In this document: piece after piece, positions 107-33,452 of the stretch
Position numbering within the stretch: the first letter of the stretch is position 1
How the letters are laid out: each line of letters opens with the position of its first letter
Source: Paludibacteraceae bacterium
GTDB lineage: Bacteria > Bacteroidota > Bacteroidia > Bacteroidales > Paludibacteraceae
NCBI GenBank assembly: GCA_029974315.1
Contig: JARKSE010000159.1
Coordinates: 1-45,358, forward strand
DNA: 45,358 nt
Direction: 5' to 3'
Translations under genes and position numbers: made by a program
Notes under the pieces: generated by a model
What the model was told of the DNA's origin: nothing
The model's input: the letters and a program-made list of their open reading frames with translations, nothing else
Database searches by the model: none

Positions 107-3100
107 TTAGAAACCTAATGTAATACCACCTGACACAGTAGTCATGGCTGAATAAGAGTAGCCTGTTGCACCACTAAAACTCTGACGTGGATCTAATCCC
201 TTACGAGCAGAAACCAAAGCCAAATTATCACCTACTAGATAAACACGGAACGTTCTAATTTTGGCTTTATTCAACCACTTTTTAGGGAATGTATAACCAA
301 ATGTTATATTACGTAAGCTAAAATAGCTTGCGGAGGTCAACCAACGGTCAGCACCTTCACTAATAGATTGAGATGATGCTTGTACACGTGGCACATTGGT
401 ATCTGTATTCGTTGGCGTCCAACGCTTAAAAATATCTTTATGCCAGTTTTGACCGTATTCACCACCATGCATTAAGCTAGCATAGTAAGAATCATCCACA
501 TAGCCTCCCAATTGGAAAGCAGTCTGCACACTTAAATCAAAACCATAAGCGTCTAAATTGGTTGATAAACCACCATACAAATTAGGTAACGCACTTTTAC
601 CCGTTTCTAAACGAGAGGCATAACTTGTTTGAGATACAAAATAAGTACCATCAGCTAATTGTCCGTGTTCTAGACCTCCTACCGCATTGAAATCGTCAGC
701 ATTATAATCTTCGTTTTTTACAGTGTACATAGGAGAACCTGTTTCGGCATTCACTCCTAGGTAATGATAATCATAAAAATCATACAAAGAACCACCAACT
801 GAACGCCAGTAACCTCCAACAGCATAACCGCCATCTTCGGCAATAGCATCAGCTTTGTCCGAAGGTAAACGCGTTAATGAATTTTTATAGGTTGTCAAGT
901 TCAAATCAACATCCCATTTAACGTTACGAGTTTTTACAATGGTTGCACCTAATTCAATTTCAACACCTACATTACGCATATCCATTTCATTGGTATACAT
1001 CCATGAAGGAGAACCTATTGATGGAGGTAACGGTTTCGCATAAAGCATATCATTGGTTTCTTTAATAAAGAAATCAGCTTCCAAATCAAAACGATCAAAC
1101 AACCCTAATTCAAAACCTACGTTAAAGTTATTACTCTTTTCCCATGTTAAATTAGGATTTCCACGATAAGCAAAAGATGGAGAAGGCATACCATCAACAC
1201 GGCTCAAGCTATATTGATCTAAATAAGGAGTAGCACCCGCTCCAAGTGCGTCATTACCTTGAGTACCATAACTCGTTTTCAATTTCAAATCATGAATAGC
1301 ACTTATATCTTGTAAAAAGCTCTCTTCTTTCATACGCCAAGAAGCTCCAACAGACCAAAAATTACCCCAACGAACATCAGGATGAAAATAAGAAGAACCA
1401 TCGCGGCGGAATGACGCTGACAAATAATATTTATCAGAATAATCATATTCCACACGGCTCAAGAGACCTTGTATATTGTAACCAGAAGTATATGACGATA
1501 AATCGGTAATAGTTCCTGCATTAGCAAATTCAGGATTTGTAGGGTCATAAAATTGTTGCATAGAACCAGATAAAACCTCTGTCTCATCCATTTTTAATTC
1601 ATGACCAAGCAATACATTAATGCTATGGCCATCAAAATCATGTTCATATGTCAGCAATTGGTTAGTATTAAAGGCTGCGTAACGTTGCATTGCCTTAGAA
1701 CCTGTACCTCCATTTTCAATGGCATTACCATTCGTTGGCGACATAAATTCCGTCGATGAAAAATTAAATACATCATAACTTGCATTAACCGTGAATTTAA
1801 AATCTTTCAAGAATGAAAATTCTAAATAACCACGCAAGCTCAAGTTATCAGCAATATAACGATAAATATCACTACCTAAATAAGACAATGGATTTTGTTT
1901 AGACGCATAAGGACGACCATTTTCATCACCAAAGTCATACTTTTTATTACCATTTTCATCCAAAATAGCATCACCAGTGGTTTGGTCATACAAATAAATT
2001 GGATAAATAGGTGCAATGCTTTGCGAGAACATAAACAAGTTACTATAATCTGATCCTCCTGCACTTGGGGCATCTTGACTGGTTTGTGTATAAGCAATAT
2101 TAGCACCTGCTTTGAACCATTTTGTAACTTCTTGATCCACTTTTACACGAGAATTAAATCGTTGAAAACCAGACCCTTGAATATATCCATTATCTTCAAG
2201 ATACCCAGCAGAAATATAATATGAAGATTTATCTGAACCACCACTAATATTCACATTGTATTCTTGGCGTAATCCCGTTTGAAAAGGATCTGTTGCCCAA
2301 TTGTCATTCCATTTTTTCTGGGTAGCATTTGGATTAATTTGACCCGTAACAGGATCTACCAACTGATTATTAGCAATACCTTTATAAATATTATATTTCA
2401 AGTATTTGTCAACTAATTCATTTGAAGCAGCAATACCTGAAGCTAAATAGGTGCTACCTGAAGCCAAATACATATTACGAATAGATTCCCACGACATTTC
2501 ATAATAGTCTGCAGGGTTCGAAATAATATCATACGTTGGTACGCCACGCATGTTTCCACCCACACGAGCCTCGAAATTCACTTTGGCATTGCCATCTGAT
2601 CCTTTTTTGGTTGTAATCAAAATTACACCATTAGACCCACGCGCACCATACATAGAGTTTGCAGCAGCATCCTTCAATACGGTTAATGAAGCAATATCCT
2701 GAGTAGGAATAGAATTCAAAGAACCTTCGTAAGGAATACCATCGACAACTATCAACGGGCTTTGTGATGCTGAAATTGATCCCACACCACGAATACGGAT
2801 AGAAGCTGACTCGCCAGGCTGACCTGAACTTGAAGACACTTGCACACCCGACATGGCACCATCTAACGATTTAGAAACGTCAGACACCTGCATTTTTGCC
2901 AATTCTTCACCTGTCTTAGTTTGCGCAGAACCTGTAAATGCTTTTTTAGTTGAGGTACCATAAGCTACAGCAATAACCTCATCAAGCACAATAGCATCTG
3001 CTTCCATTTCTATTACCATTCCGTTTTTAGCCGGAACTTCTAAGGTTTTCATACCCATATACGAAACAACCAAAATAGCATTGTCTGGTACTTGAAGTTC

Positions 3101-11524: not shown

Positions 11525-12424
11525 TTAGTCGTTTTTATGCTCTATTTGATAACCGAAATTGCGCAATTTACGTTCGCGATTACGCCAATCTTTTTCTACT
11601 TTTACAAAAAGTTGCAAAAAAACTTTTTTATCAAAAAAGGCTTCTATGTCTTTACGGGCTTGCGTGCCAACCGTACGAAGAGCTGCGCCTTGTTTTCCTA
11701 TGAGTATGCCCTTCTGCGAATCGCGTTCGCAAAAAATGACCGCACTGATACGTAATAAATTTCCTTCTTCTTTAAACTCCTCCACTGCAACCTCTACAGA
11801 ATAAGGAATTTCCTTATCGTAGTTCATCAAAATTTTCTCACGAATGATTTCGGTCACAAAAAAACGTTCCGATTTATCAGTCAACGCGTCTTTATCAAAA
11901 AACGGAGGCGACTCGGGCAATAAGTCTTTAATGTGGTTGAACAGCGTTTCGATATTGAATTTTTCCAATGCCGATATTGGGAAAATTTCAGCTTTAGGCA
12001 ATTCCTTATGCCAGAAATCGACCAGTGCTTCTAATTTTTCTTGATCTATTAAATCTATTTTATTGACAATGAGAATAATTTTAGTCGTATCCTGCATCCG
12101 TTGCACTTTTTCGAGGAAAAACGCATTTTTATCAGGAGAATCAAGTACATCGGTCACATACAACAGAATATCGGCATCGGTAAGCGCCGAGTTAGAAAAT
12201 CCTAACATCGACTCTTGTAATTTGTAATTAGGTTTTAATACACCCGGCGTGTCTGAATAGACAATTTGAAAATCATCACCATTAACGATACCCAAAATAC
12301 GATGACGTGTAGTTTGCGCTTTAGACGTAATAATAGAGATACGCTCGCCCACTAACGCATTCATTAAAGTCGATTTTCCCACATTGGGATTTCCAACAAT
12401 ATTGACAAAACCTGCTCTATGCAT
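11525..12424 (-). CDS. era: GTPase Era
   Basis: A 299-residue GTPase that binds the 3' end of 16S rRNA and supports 30S maturation. The G domain opens [24 protein letters not shown], with SDTPG (G3) and NKID (G4); the C-terminal KH domain (about 200-290) contains ILIGKQGAALRTVGTQARKDIE and ends in KVEKDWRNRERKLRNFGY. The start at 12422-12424 is chosen because it matches the family's N-terminus; an upstream in-frame start at 12523 would lie upstream of the -7 box TATCTTTG (12474-12481 minus). First gene of the era-der-helicase unit. Confidence 0.97.
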   Translation of the reverse strand: MHRAGFVNIVGNPNVGKSTLMNALVGERISIITSKAQTTRHRILGIVNGDDFQIVYSDTPGVLKPNYKLQESMLGFSNSALTDADILLYVTDVLDSPDKNAFFLEKVQRMQDTTKIILIVNKIDLIDQEKLEALVDFWHKELPKAEIFPISALEKFNIETLFNHIKDLLPESPPFFDKDALTDKSERFFVTEIIREKILMNYDKEIPYSVEVAVEEFKEEGNLLRISAVIFCERDSQKGILIGKQGAALRTVGTQARKDIEAFFDKKVFLQLFVKVEKDWRNRERKLRNFGYQIEHKND

Positions 12425-12473
12425 AGCAATCGGAATAATTATGGATTTGATTTCCTCATCACAAATTGAGCGA

Positions 12474-12481
12474 CAAAGATA
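12474..12481 (-). promoter_or_regulatory. -7 box for era
   Basis: TATCTTTG on the minus strand matches TAnnTTTG and lies about 50 nt upstream of the chosen era start. No clear TTTG is seen 19-20 nt upstream, so support is moderate. Confidence 0.4.
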
Positions 12482-12547
12482 CAAAAAATCTGTCAGTTGT
12501 ATACTATGCAGTTCGTAAAACACTGATAGACATTTTTATAAATTCTC

Positions 12548-32204: not shown

Positions 32205-33035
32205 ATGAAAAAACTTTTCTTTTTATTGGCAGCTTTTTGTTGCACGGCAGTTTTGTATGCTCAAACCGAAATAACAACGGTTGAATTTTCGCTTAATCGC
32301 AATGCTATTGACTTTTACATAGGCAATACAGAAGGCGCAGTGGACAACAAAATTGGGAGCAATACGTCTGTACCCGCTGAAGTTGGTTATACATACCGGT
32401 CTGCATATTTGATGTATGAACATTCCCCAAGTAATTTTTGGGGTGTTGGTAATGGTGAAGAAGCTATCTCCGGAACTAAAACGTATGCTGTGCGATTGGA
32501 TATTAGTGTAGTAGCCGATTATGCTTGGCCCGCCGACCTCAATACGCTGACTTTTATTTGGGATGGCGATACGGTTGTTCCTGCTCAAGTTAAAAATGCG
32601 AATCCTACCGTTATTGCTGCATATCTACTATTGGGCACGCCGGCTGAAGCACCTGCGCCTACTTATACACTCACTTTAGTCAATGCAGATAAACATGGAT
32701 ATTCAAATCAGACATTTACCGGTGGCAACTATGTTGAGGGAGCATCAATTACTTTCCAATATAAAGCTCCGAAAAGTGGCAAAGTATTTGACAAATGGGT
32801 GTCCGAAGGATTGACACTCACCACAGAGCAAGAAACTGATAACCCATTGACCATTGTGATGCCTGCCAATGCCGTAACCATAACGGCTACTTACACAACT
32901 GCAACCGCCATCAATAACGTGAAACTCGAAGCGCCAAAATCGAAAAAAATAATAGTAGATGGTGTGGTTTACATTCTCCGTAACGAAAAGGTTTACAACC
33001 TTCAAGGCATGGAATGCGAATTACCGATGAAGTAA
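32205..33035 (+). CDS. Secreted protein with a bacterial-repeat (InlB-like) domain and conserved C-terminal tail
   Basis: A 276-residue exported protein: signal peptide MKKLFFLLAAFCCTAVLYAQ; an N-terminal beta domain (about 22-140; GTKTYAVRLDISVVADYAWP) resembling Listeria-Bacteroides repeat modules; a Pro/Ala linker (APAPTY); a divergent InlB B-repeat-like domain (about 152-230; FDKWVSEGLTL and VMPANAVTITATY); and a C-terminal tail (about 247-276) with KKIIVDGVVYILRNEKVYNLQG. That tail resembles ends seen on many exported Bacteroidales proteins (from memory), so it could be a sorting or anchoring signal. It stands alone and ends in a terminator. Ligand unknown. Confidence 0.82.
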   Translation: MKKLFFLLAAFCCTAVLYAQTEITTVEFSLNRNAIDFYIGNTEGAVDNKIGSNTSVPAEVGYTYRSAYLMYEHSPSNFWGVGNGEEAISGTKTYAVRLDISVVADYAWPADLNTLTFIWDGDTVVPAQVKNANPTVIAAYLLLGTPAEAPAPTYTLTLVNADKHGYSNQTFTGGNYVEGASITFQYKAPKSGKVFDKWVSEGLTLTTEQETDNPLTIVMPANAVTITATYTTATAINNVKLEAPKSKKIIVDGVVYILRNEKVYNLQGMECELPMK

Positions 33036-33061: not shown

Positions 33062-33097
33062 AAAGTAGGGACATTATGTGTGTTCCTACTTTTTTTT
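33062..33097 (+). terminator. Terminator of the secreted-protein gene
   Basis: A 12-bp stem (AAAGTAGGGACA 33062-33073 with TGTTCCTACTTT 33081-33092, one G-U pair, loop TTATGTG) followed by a run of T to 33097. Confidence 0.85.
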
Positions 33098-33151
33098 ATA
33101 AAAACGATAATTGGTAGAAAACTAATTGGGGAAATAATTTAAGAAGCGACT

Positions 33152-33251
33152 AAAAAAGCTTGCTACACAAGTAACAAGCTTAAATGATAAGAAACTAACA
33201 GTACTGCACGCTTTGTTAGTTTTACAAAATGGAAACTCCCCATTTCAACTT
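33152..33251 (-). ncRNA. Candidate small regulatory RNA, about 100 nt
   Basis: A free-standing transcription unit without an open frame. A consensus promoter (33258-33288) should start transcription near 33251. The RNA would contain three hairpins: AAATGG with CCATTT near its 5' end; AAACTAACA (minus 33222-33214) with TGTTAGTTT (33200-33192); and a terminator stem AAGCTTG/CAAGCTT (33181-33175 and 33162-33156, with an extra TAC/GTA pair) followed by six T ending near 33152. I cannot match it to a named RNA. The 5' end is estimated to within a few bases. It lies between the tRNA-Lys hairpin and the terminator of the convergent secreted-protein gene. Confidence 0.55.
33156..33181 (-). terminator. 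Terminator of the candidate small RNA
   Basis: On the minus strand a 7-bp stem AAGCTTG/CAAGCTT, extended by TAC/GTA across one mismatch, loop of four, directly followed by T-rich sequence (GCTTTTTTA). Confidence 0.7.
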
Positions 33252-33257
33252 GCACAG

Positions 33258-33288
33258 CAAATATACAACACTTTTTTGTAAAAACAAA
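33258..33288 (-). promoter_or_regulatory. Consensus promoter of the candidate small RNA
   Basis: Minus strand TTTG (33285-33288), a 19-nt spacer, and TATATTTG (33258-33265) match both elements of the Bacteroidota promoter. No protein start lies downstream on this strand, which is what makes it notable. Confidence 0.65.
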
Positions 33289-33339: not shown

Positions 33340-33379
33340 CAAAGAGCTTGCAATCAATCGATTGATTGCAAGCTCTTTG
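33340..33379. terminator. Perfect 40-bp palindrome next to tRNA-Lys
   Basis: Two perfect 20-bp arms with no spacer (each holds CAAAGAGCTTGC; centre ATCGAT). It abuts the tRNA 3' end at 33380 with no gap. On the minus strand the 3' arm ends CTCTTTG, a short T-rich tail, so a tRNA terminator is the simplest reading. Confidence 0.65.
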
Positions 33380-33452
33380 TATACCCGGTGGGACTCGAAC
33401 CCACGACCCATTGATTAAGAGTCAATTGCTCTACCAACTGAGCTAAGGATAC
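33380..33452 (-). tRNA. tRNA-Lys (anticodon CUU)
   Basis: A 73-nt cloverleaf on the minus strand: acceptor GTATCCT/CGGGTAT with A73, D stem GCTC/GAGC, anticodon stem ATTGA/TCAAT with loop CTCTTAA (anticodon CTT at plus 33417-33419), variable loop GGGTC, T stem GTGGG/CCCAC with TTCGAGT. CCA is not encoded. The acceptor stem is weak: G1-U72 and U4-G69 wobbles and a U7/C66 mismatch. It lies 21 nt after the DegT gene stop on the same strand; a near-consensus box overlaps that stop, so it may be cotranscribed or separately started. Confidence 0.9.

Follow-up and report, generated by a model that had tools for sequence, protein, structure and literature searches.

A candidate antitoxin RNA family beside PBECR1 ribonuclease genes in Bacteroidota, with an orphan member in a Paludibacteraceae contig

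A 45,358-nucleotide stretch of DNA from a Paludibacteraceae bacterium (contig JARKSE010000159.1 of GenBank assembly GCA_029974315.1, positions 1 to 45,358 of the forward strand; hereafter the window) carries on its minus strand, at 33152-33251, a predicted small RNA (sRNA) gene. Comparative analysis places this RNA in a Bacteroidota family with a common three-way-junction fold, most members of which stand beside a gene for PBECR1 (PF18809), a predicted ribonuclease (RNase) of the BECR fold (PMC5512222). The RNA family and its linkage to PBECR1 are well supported. It seems somewhat probable that the RNA is an antitoxin or immunity RNA that neutralises the PBECR1 RNase, and that the window holds an orphan of this new family. 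A toxin-less orphan, like seven other members, is the best reading of the window copy.

The RNA family and its shared fold

The elements of the RNA in the window are as follows.

33258-33288, minus strand: promoter of Bacteroidota type by sequence reading, with TTTG at 33288-33285, a spacer of 19 nt and TATATTTG at 33265-33258
33152-33251, minus strand: predicted small RNA of about 100 nt, its 5' end placed from the promoter and its 3' end from the terminator
33226-33246, minus strand: hairpin P1, which contains GGGGAGUUUCC and shows a compensatory A-U/U-A change relative to the homolog L010
33220-33225, minus strand: conserved linker GUAAAA that joins P1 to P2 (alignments A4 and A5), the last AAA of which pairs in P2
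33192-33222, minus strand: hairpin P2, with a 13-nt loop at 33213-33201 (AAGCGUGCAGUAC) whose third base is a nearly invariant G
33152-33181, minus strand: intrinsic terminator, a hairpin at 33181-33156 followed by a T run to 33152

The first-pass annotation of the window had proposed a new small RNA of about 100 nt with its own TTTG-N19-TATATTTG promoter, three hairpins and a terminal T run. The promoter is present at 33288-33258 by direct reading, and the three hairpins (P1, P2 and the terminator) and the length are borne out at 33251-33152. The fold is more stable than that of shuffled sequences (z -3.34 for 33253-33150 and z -4.13 for 33251-33151), and no minus-strand open reading frame (ORF) of at least 40 codons lies inside the RNA. 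The annotation had also called the pattern strong evidence by itself, which overrates it. A first-order Markov model predicts 3.2 occurrences of the promoter pattern in the window, where 4 are seen, and 0.065 occurrences of a promoter with a terminator downstream, where one is seen; 6.5% of 200 simulations reached that result. The pattern evidence for the window RNA alone is thus modest, and since the promoter is expected about three times in such a window and the combination far less often, comparison with relatives was needed. The comparative evidence decides the question and argues strongly that the window RNA is a real and new small RNA gene: stem changes in the homologs are compensated and their terminators are built separately, no Rfam family matches above its threshold, and no reading frame is conserved.

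A DNA search with the window RNA covered 300 genomes of the same family (Paludibacteraceae). Matches were obtained in 64 of them, mostly over the promoter, and the core was covered in G003 alone, a genome of another genus (locus L010, the same as L124; E 3.5e-19, 91% identity over 33254-33190). The homolog search and stem comparison that the annotation had suggested gave a positive result here, as all three parts (promoter, core and terminator) are kept in G003 and the stem changes compensate each other. The -7 box of L010 is TACTTTTG, and its terminator is present but different in sequence. All 52 pair cells are kept between the two RNAs and 4 of 26 pairs are changed on both sides; 33 of 500 shuffles did as well, a weak control with two sequences. 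Short matches to other parts of the RNA were seen in G196, G043, G048 and G209, of which two were inspected and set aside.

A covariance model, R1, was built from the window and L010 with the terminator included, neither RNA being beside PBECR1. R1 found L131, L132, L133 (two copies), L125 and a second copy in L124, in genomes of the same and of other families. Its first scan gave 8 rows, of which 3 were accepted (window, L124, L125) and 5 rejected; the second gave 31 rows, with 4 accepted (window, L131, L132, L133) and 27 rejected. Among the rejected rows, L134-L137, L140-L142 and L126 were inspected (mainly terminator matches) and the others were dropped on score. Alignment A4 and a second model, R2, combined the R1 members with L165 and two RNAs of L168 that had been recognised by eye beside toxins, making 11 sequences including the window. 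R2 contains the promoter box and lacks the terminator. A scan of 374 genomes of the order with R2 returned 17 rows in 14 genomes, of which 14 were accepted and L180-L182 were rejected by eye. The family has 22 members, counting a second copy in L193 and L208; L160-L164 and L186-L193 are wider stretches around loci named earlier.

The TAnnTTTG box, P1, GUAAAA and P2 with its loop of about 13 nt are present in the window. The R1 match (33152-33251) and the R2 match (33187-33265) of the window RNA are by construction, and the R2 score (76.6 bits, E 1.1e-10 in 260 kb) belongs to one of the model's own 11 training sequences. Independent support for the membership of the window comes from the DNA match to G003 and from the discovery of L131-L133 and L125 with R1. 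The TAnnTTTG box precedes 22 of 22 members; it is part of R2 and is absent from R1, yet it stands before all 6 members newly found with R1.

The predicted fold, which is well supported by the alignments, is a three-way junction consisting of a closing stem P0, P1, GUAAAA and P2 with a loop of about 13 nt, in a core of about 65 nt to which the terminator is added. In A4 (11 members), 82.3% of cells were paired compared with 63.7% in shuffles (0/500), and both sides were changed in 46 cells compared with 16.6 in shuffles (0/500). When the partner was slid by 1-3 columns, the both-side changes dropped to 6-14 cells. Such changes occurred in 13 of 17 pairs, a count reached by 7 of 500 shuffles. 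P0, which is in neither model, had a mean duplex energy of -5.4 versus -1.9 (standard deviation 0.44) with permuted partners (0/5000). In 16 of 22 members a terminator directly follows P2 (the count includes both L186 terminators, which are weak and overlap P2), compared with 5.6% of 2000 random places. Among the members not found with R1, which held the terminator, the count is 9 of 14, the same two weak cases included. In both copies of L168 and in L208, the T run directly follows the closing stem itself. The P2 loop is mostly 13 nt long with G at position 3, and the other positions are variable.

The claim that no named RNA matches was confirmed by a covariance search of Rfam (release 15), in which the window RNA had no match at E≤1. 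For the RNAs of L124, L125 and L131-L133 nothing exceeded the threshold; the only sub-threshold matches, both on L132, were to ncr1015 (34.2 bits, cut-off 60, E 0.086) and rnk_pseudo (27.5 bits, cut-off 55). The RNAs of eight further loci (13 related loci altogether) also gave no match above threshold. A known Rfam RNA was therefore rejected as the identity, no family reaching its gathering score. A conserved small protein was likewise rejected: the longest ATG frames range from none to 32 codons and lie in different frames, and 6 of 22 members have no ATG frame. No prior description of such an RNA was found in the literature searched; it may stand unnamed in supplementary tables such as those of PMC8040213. 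To judge from these comparisons, the family is previously uncatalogued.

Linkage to PBECR1 genes and anatomy of the unit

The PBECR1 profile matched 7 proteins with 38-87 bits against a cut-off of 27.6 and E values down to 1.6e-24. At L131-L133 the RNA is convergent into a PBECR1 gene (E 2.7e-22 to 2.6e-9), and 3 of the 4 genome places newly accepted with R1 have this arrangement. R2 showed the same convergence in L190, L192, L193 (two units), L191 and L189. At L189, the last 94 bases at the contig end encode a PBECR1 C terminus, and elsewhere in that genome a contig end truncates a PBECR1 gene. Altogether, 14 of 22 members lie at the 3' side of PBECR1 and point towards it (L160, L161, two in L162, L165, two in L168, L189, L190, L191, L192, two in L193, and L208). 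Counting only placements from the genome scans with R1 and R2, the proportion is 9 of 16, or 8 of 15 without the second copy of L162, which was first seen on a fetched locus. PBECR1 is a rare domain: 7 of 208 genomes in the order and 1 of 325 in the class have it above the cut-off, compared with 7 of 13 genomes that were selected because they carry the RNA. In 3 of the 14 adjacent cases (L161, the second copy of L162, and L191, which has an internal deletion) the toxin is broken and the RNA core is kept.

Searches with the toxin yielded L165 and two toxins in G1006, then four loci above the cut-off (L207-L210) and L211 below it. L165, which R1 had missed, and both G1006 toxins had the RNA by eye, and these RNAs were then put into R2. 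The RNA at L208 was found independently by R2 (E 0.001), and R2 found none at L211. A divergent solo PBECR1 gene faces a TATCTTTGC promoter and a differently folded, hairpin-rich RNA (by eye) at two places, one being the second toxin gene of L191 (9473-10020) and the other the region 3' of the L210 toxin gene; these convergent RNAs are perhaps a second class of partner RNA. Among phages, 111 records match PBECR1; in the three that were opened (Campylobacter, Helicobacter and Pseudomonas) the match falls within large genes or runs over genes on the opposite strand. Plasmids gave no PBECR1 match, and a second viral scan, by protein, yielded no relative.

The stop codon of the toxin starts 18-24 nt past P2 in 7 of 11 pairs, which puts it inside or next to the terminator loop, so that the RNA terminator is made of the last codons of the toxin. 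The overlap is larger in both units of L168, and the genes are about 70 nt apart in L190 and L165. Two units each occur in L162, L168 and L193. The tandem units of L168 (6149-6750 and 7280-7886) are alike in the promoter (97% identity in that block) and diverged in the RNA hairpins (67-83%) and the toxin C terminus, where identity is 67-80% in the last part compared with 83-100% per 30-column block elsewhere; they recall polymorphic toxin-immunity pairs. At L190 (8803-8948, minus strand), two RNA units appear to be fused in one transcript opposite the PBECR1 gene, with a poor R2 alignment. Within 900 bp of 9 intact toxins, no protein recurred (ATG ORFs of 40-400 codons, blastp E 1e-3) beyond tandem PBECR1 copies and one PBECR-like ORF, and hence no protein antitoxin is evident.

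An AlphaFold2 model of the toxin (10-row alignment) had a predicted local distance difference test score (pLDDT) of 86.6. The top structural neighbours by VIA-align were CdiA domains, 7m5f (Z 7.7 over 91 residues, 3.6 Å), 6cp9 (4.8) and 5i4q (4.5), followed by BrnT, RelE and YafQ; 80 of 959 chains had Z≥2, and the top rows were mostly CdiA and RelE-type toxins. This ranking fits the BECR assignment of the modelled toxin, though it lies below the caution level of the tool. The 10 aligned toxins share a histidine (GxGLxHI) and a C-terminal T/S, and these residues form the active-site pattern given for PBECR (PMC5512222). PADLOC gave no family for 3 toxins.

Possible role of the RNA and alternative explanations

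We propose that the RNA would be made from its own Bacteroidota-type promoter and fold into the three-way junction, forming with the convergent PBECR1 gene a compact two-gene unit in many relatives. It would neutralise a predicted metal-independent BECR-fold endoribonuclease, most simply by binding as a pseudo-substrate. The orphan of the window would be a leftover or an acquired copy, which may protect against incoming mobile elements that bear the toxin. A role as antitoxin or immunity RNA is suggested because an RNase gene is coupled to a structured RNA, no protein partner recurs, the RNA is kept beside broken toxins, and orphan RNAs occur. More tentatively, the units may possibly represent a new type of toxin-antitoxin (TA) or phage-immunity module, in which the gene of a solo BECR-fold RNase lies tail-to-tail with a three-way-junction RNA and overlaps its terminator, this RNA would bind the RNase and inhibit it, the variable loops of P1 and P2 would set specificity, and orphans would act as immunity against elements delivering the toxin.

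Several results weigh against this proposal. Eight of 22 members are not beside PBECR1 (the window, L163, two in L164, two in L186, L187 and L188), and no PBECR1 relics were found beside these eight. R2 was partly trained on toxin-adjacent RNAs, and its scans may favour such RNAs. The RNA of L208 lies on the antisense strand immediately behind the PBECR1 domain, with the toxin ORF running on across it, and R2 found no RNA at L207 and L209, where PBECR1 lies within giant ORFs. Toxin and RNA similarity did not co-vary in 12 pairs compared on C-terminal pieces, one of them partly out of frame (rho 0.005, p 0.47), nor in a second test with 9 pairs (rho 0.18, p 0.18). The P0 of the window is the weakest of the 22 (duplex energy 0.0), and the consensus P2 is missing from the single-sequence minimum-energy folds of L164, L160 and L193, so the structure rests on covariation. 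For the toxin, the best fold match (Z 7.7) is below the caution level of 8, Foldseek with the model gave nothing below E 0.39, and a sequence profile against solved structures gave nothing below E 0.22 (7m5f, CdiA).

An antisense regulator similar to those of type I systems would pair with the 3' end of the toxin mRNA, or act through transcription collision, and lower the translation or stability of the toxin. In its favour, most pairs examined have convergent genes with an overlap at the terminator, and a toxin mRNA extended by read-through would be complementary to the whole RNA. This explanation is nevertheless unlikely: covariation keeps stems that antisense action does not need, the eight members named above have no convergent PBECR1, and pairing of the RNA with the 5' region of its own toxin (-24.1) was no better than with that of others (-24.6; p 0.64, 9 pairs). 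Direct binding is preferred over antisense action because the fold is conserved, orphans exist and the 5' pairing does not exceed chance. About equally improbable is that the RNA belongs to an ordinary trans-acting sRNA family carried by mobile elements, for which PBECR1 would be shared cargo and not a partner. The members without an adjacent PBECR1, the window included, and the absence of co-variation between toxin and RNA are in its favour; overlap of stop codon and terminator, the repeated one-to-one unit, the tandems and the differing chromosomal places are unlikely for passengers. That the RNA is a natural substrate or a cofactor (guide or activator) of PBECR1 is suggested by its position next to a predicted RNase, and is very improbable given that the RNA is retained beside three broken toxins and that the PBECR section of PMC5512222 gives no precedent.

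The proposed antitoxin function resembles type III TA systems (ToxIN, CptIN, TenpIN), in which a structured RNA neutralises an endoribonuclease encoded next to it. In type III systems, RNA repeats lie upstream in the toxin operon and form a tandem-repeat pseudoknot, and the toxin is ToxN. Here, the RNA is downstream (3') on the opposite strand, has its own promoter, would fold into a three-way junction, is unrepeated in all but L190, and accompanies PBECR1; the upstream repeats and the ToxN-family toxin of type III are not found. SymE-SymR and RalR-RalA are type I systems with nuclease toxins and an sRNA on the opposite strand of the toxin gene, an arrangement shared by the present units. What sets the present units apart is an overlap mostly confined to the terminator and the last codons, together with a conserved RNA fold and the occurrence of orphans. 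The MuF and polyvalent-protein PBECR toxins of phages share the RNase domain family (PBECR1, PF18809); these toxins are solo or within large injected proteins, and the PBECR section of the paper describing them mentions no RNA partner (PMC5512222). Small protein-coding ORFs are described as following most MuF toxin genes (PMC5576092). The prediction of PBECR RNases as weapons of phages and mobile elements dates from 2017, and the PBECR section of that work names no antidote (PMC5512222). If the proposal is true, the conserved RNA partner would be an antidote for PBECR RNases, its architecture would be unlike that of type I or type III RNA antitoxins, and orphan sRNAs of Bacteroidales would be explained as immunity RNAs.

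The window copy, its surroundings and minor observations

The RNA is single-copy in the window genome (G000), in which no PBECR1 was detected and no relic was seen at the locus (the genome is 82% complete and 6% contaminated). The RNA was not found in the one other genome of the genus. R2 found nothing convincing in 80 loci fetched via the neighbouring DegT gene, many of them distant (best E 0.8); the closest named relatives of this DegT gene are in Paludibacteraceae metagenome-assembled genomes. The window RNA therefore looks lineage-specific, as cargo would be. That this copy alone is a decayed or non-transcribed remnant, as its weak P0, the lack of a nearby toxin and the 80 loci without a copy could suggest, is highly unlikely in view of its full promoter, P1, P2 and terminator and a core that is 91% identical across genera. 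Syntenic conservation beside tRNA-Lys and DegT was considered and rejected, since at this place L043, the closest named relative (92% DegT), carries a different terminator and a different gene. The neighbours of the RNA in the window are listed below.

32205-33035, plus strand: convergent (tail-to-tail) gene for a secreted protein with a divergent InlB B-repeat domain
33379-33452, minus strand: tRNA-Lys (CTT), upstream of the RNA on the same strand

The secreted-protein gene has its own terminator at 33062-33092, and no toxin domain was found in its product. The occurrence of copies of the window RNA in phages or plasmids was rejected: searches there gave only matches of 21-47 bases (E 0.07-0.9), and three pattern scans for the RNA in viral contigs gave 0 matches. 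One sRNA of L193 had no match in phages.

L186 has two near-identical orphan RNAs 10.7 kb apart (1634-1719 and 12401-12486), with a type I restriction specificity gene and, recognised by eye, a WD40-like protein nearby; the surroundings are perhaps a defence island. A Phage_Mu_F gene that scores below threshold lies near the two copies of L164. An antisense 'KKP' peptide seen next to orphans was discarded, as terminator sequence alone explains it. In L124, further promoter-hairpin-terminator candidates were seen by eye at 1015-1105 (plus strand) and about 170-350 (minus strand), near a Phage_Mu_F-like gene and beside two family members.

The 6S-Flavo RNA (RF01685) gave no match at the window locus. 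The best match to this family in the window genome lies elsewhere, at C120:21067-21172 (L039; 30.1 bits, E 0.013, cut-off 85), and is a possible diverged 6S RNA of the lineage. Within the window, a perfect 40-nt palindrome without a T run (33340-33379) abuts the 3' end of tRNA-Lys and is possibly a tRNA 3' processing or termination element or an insertion scar.
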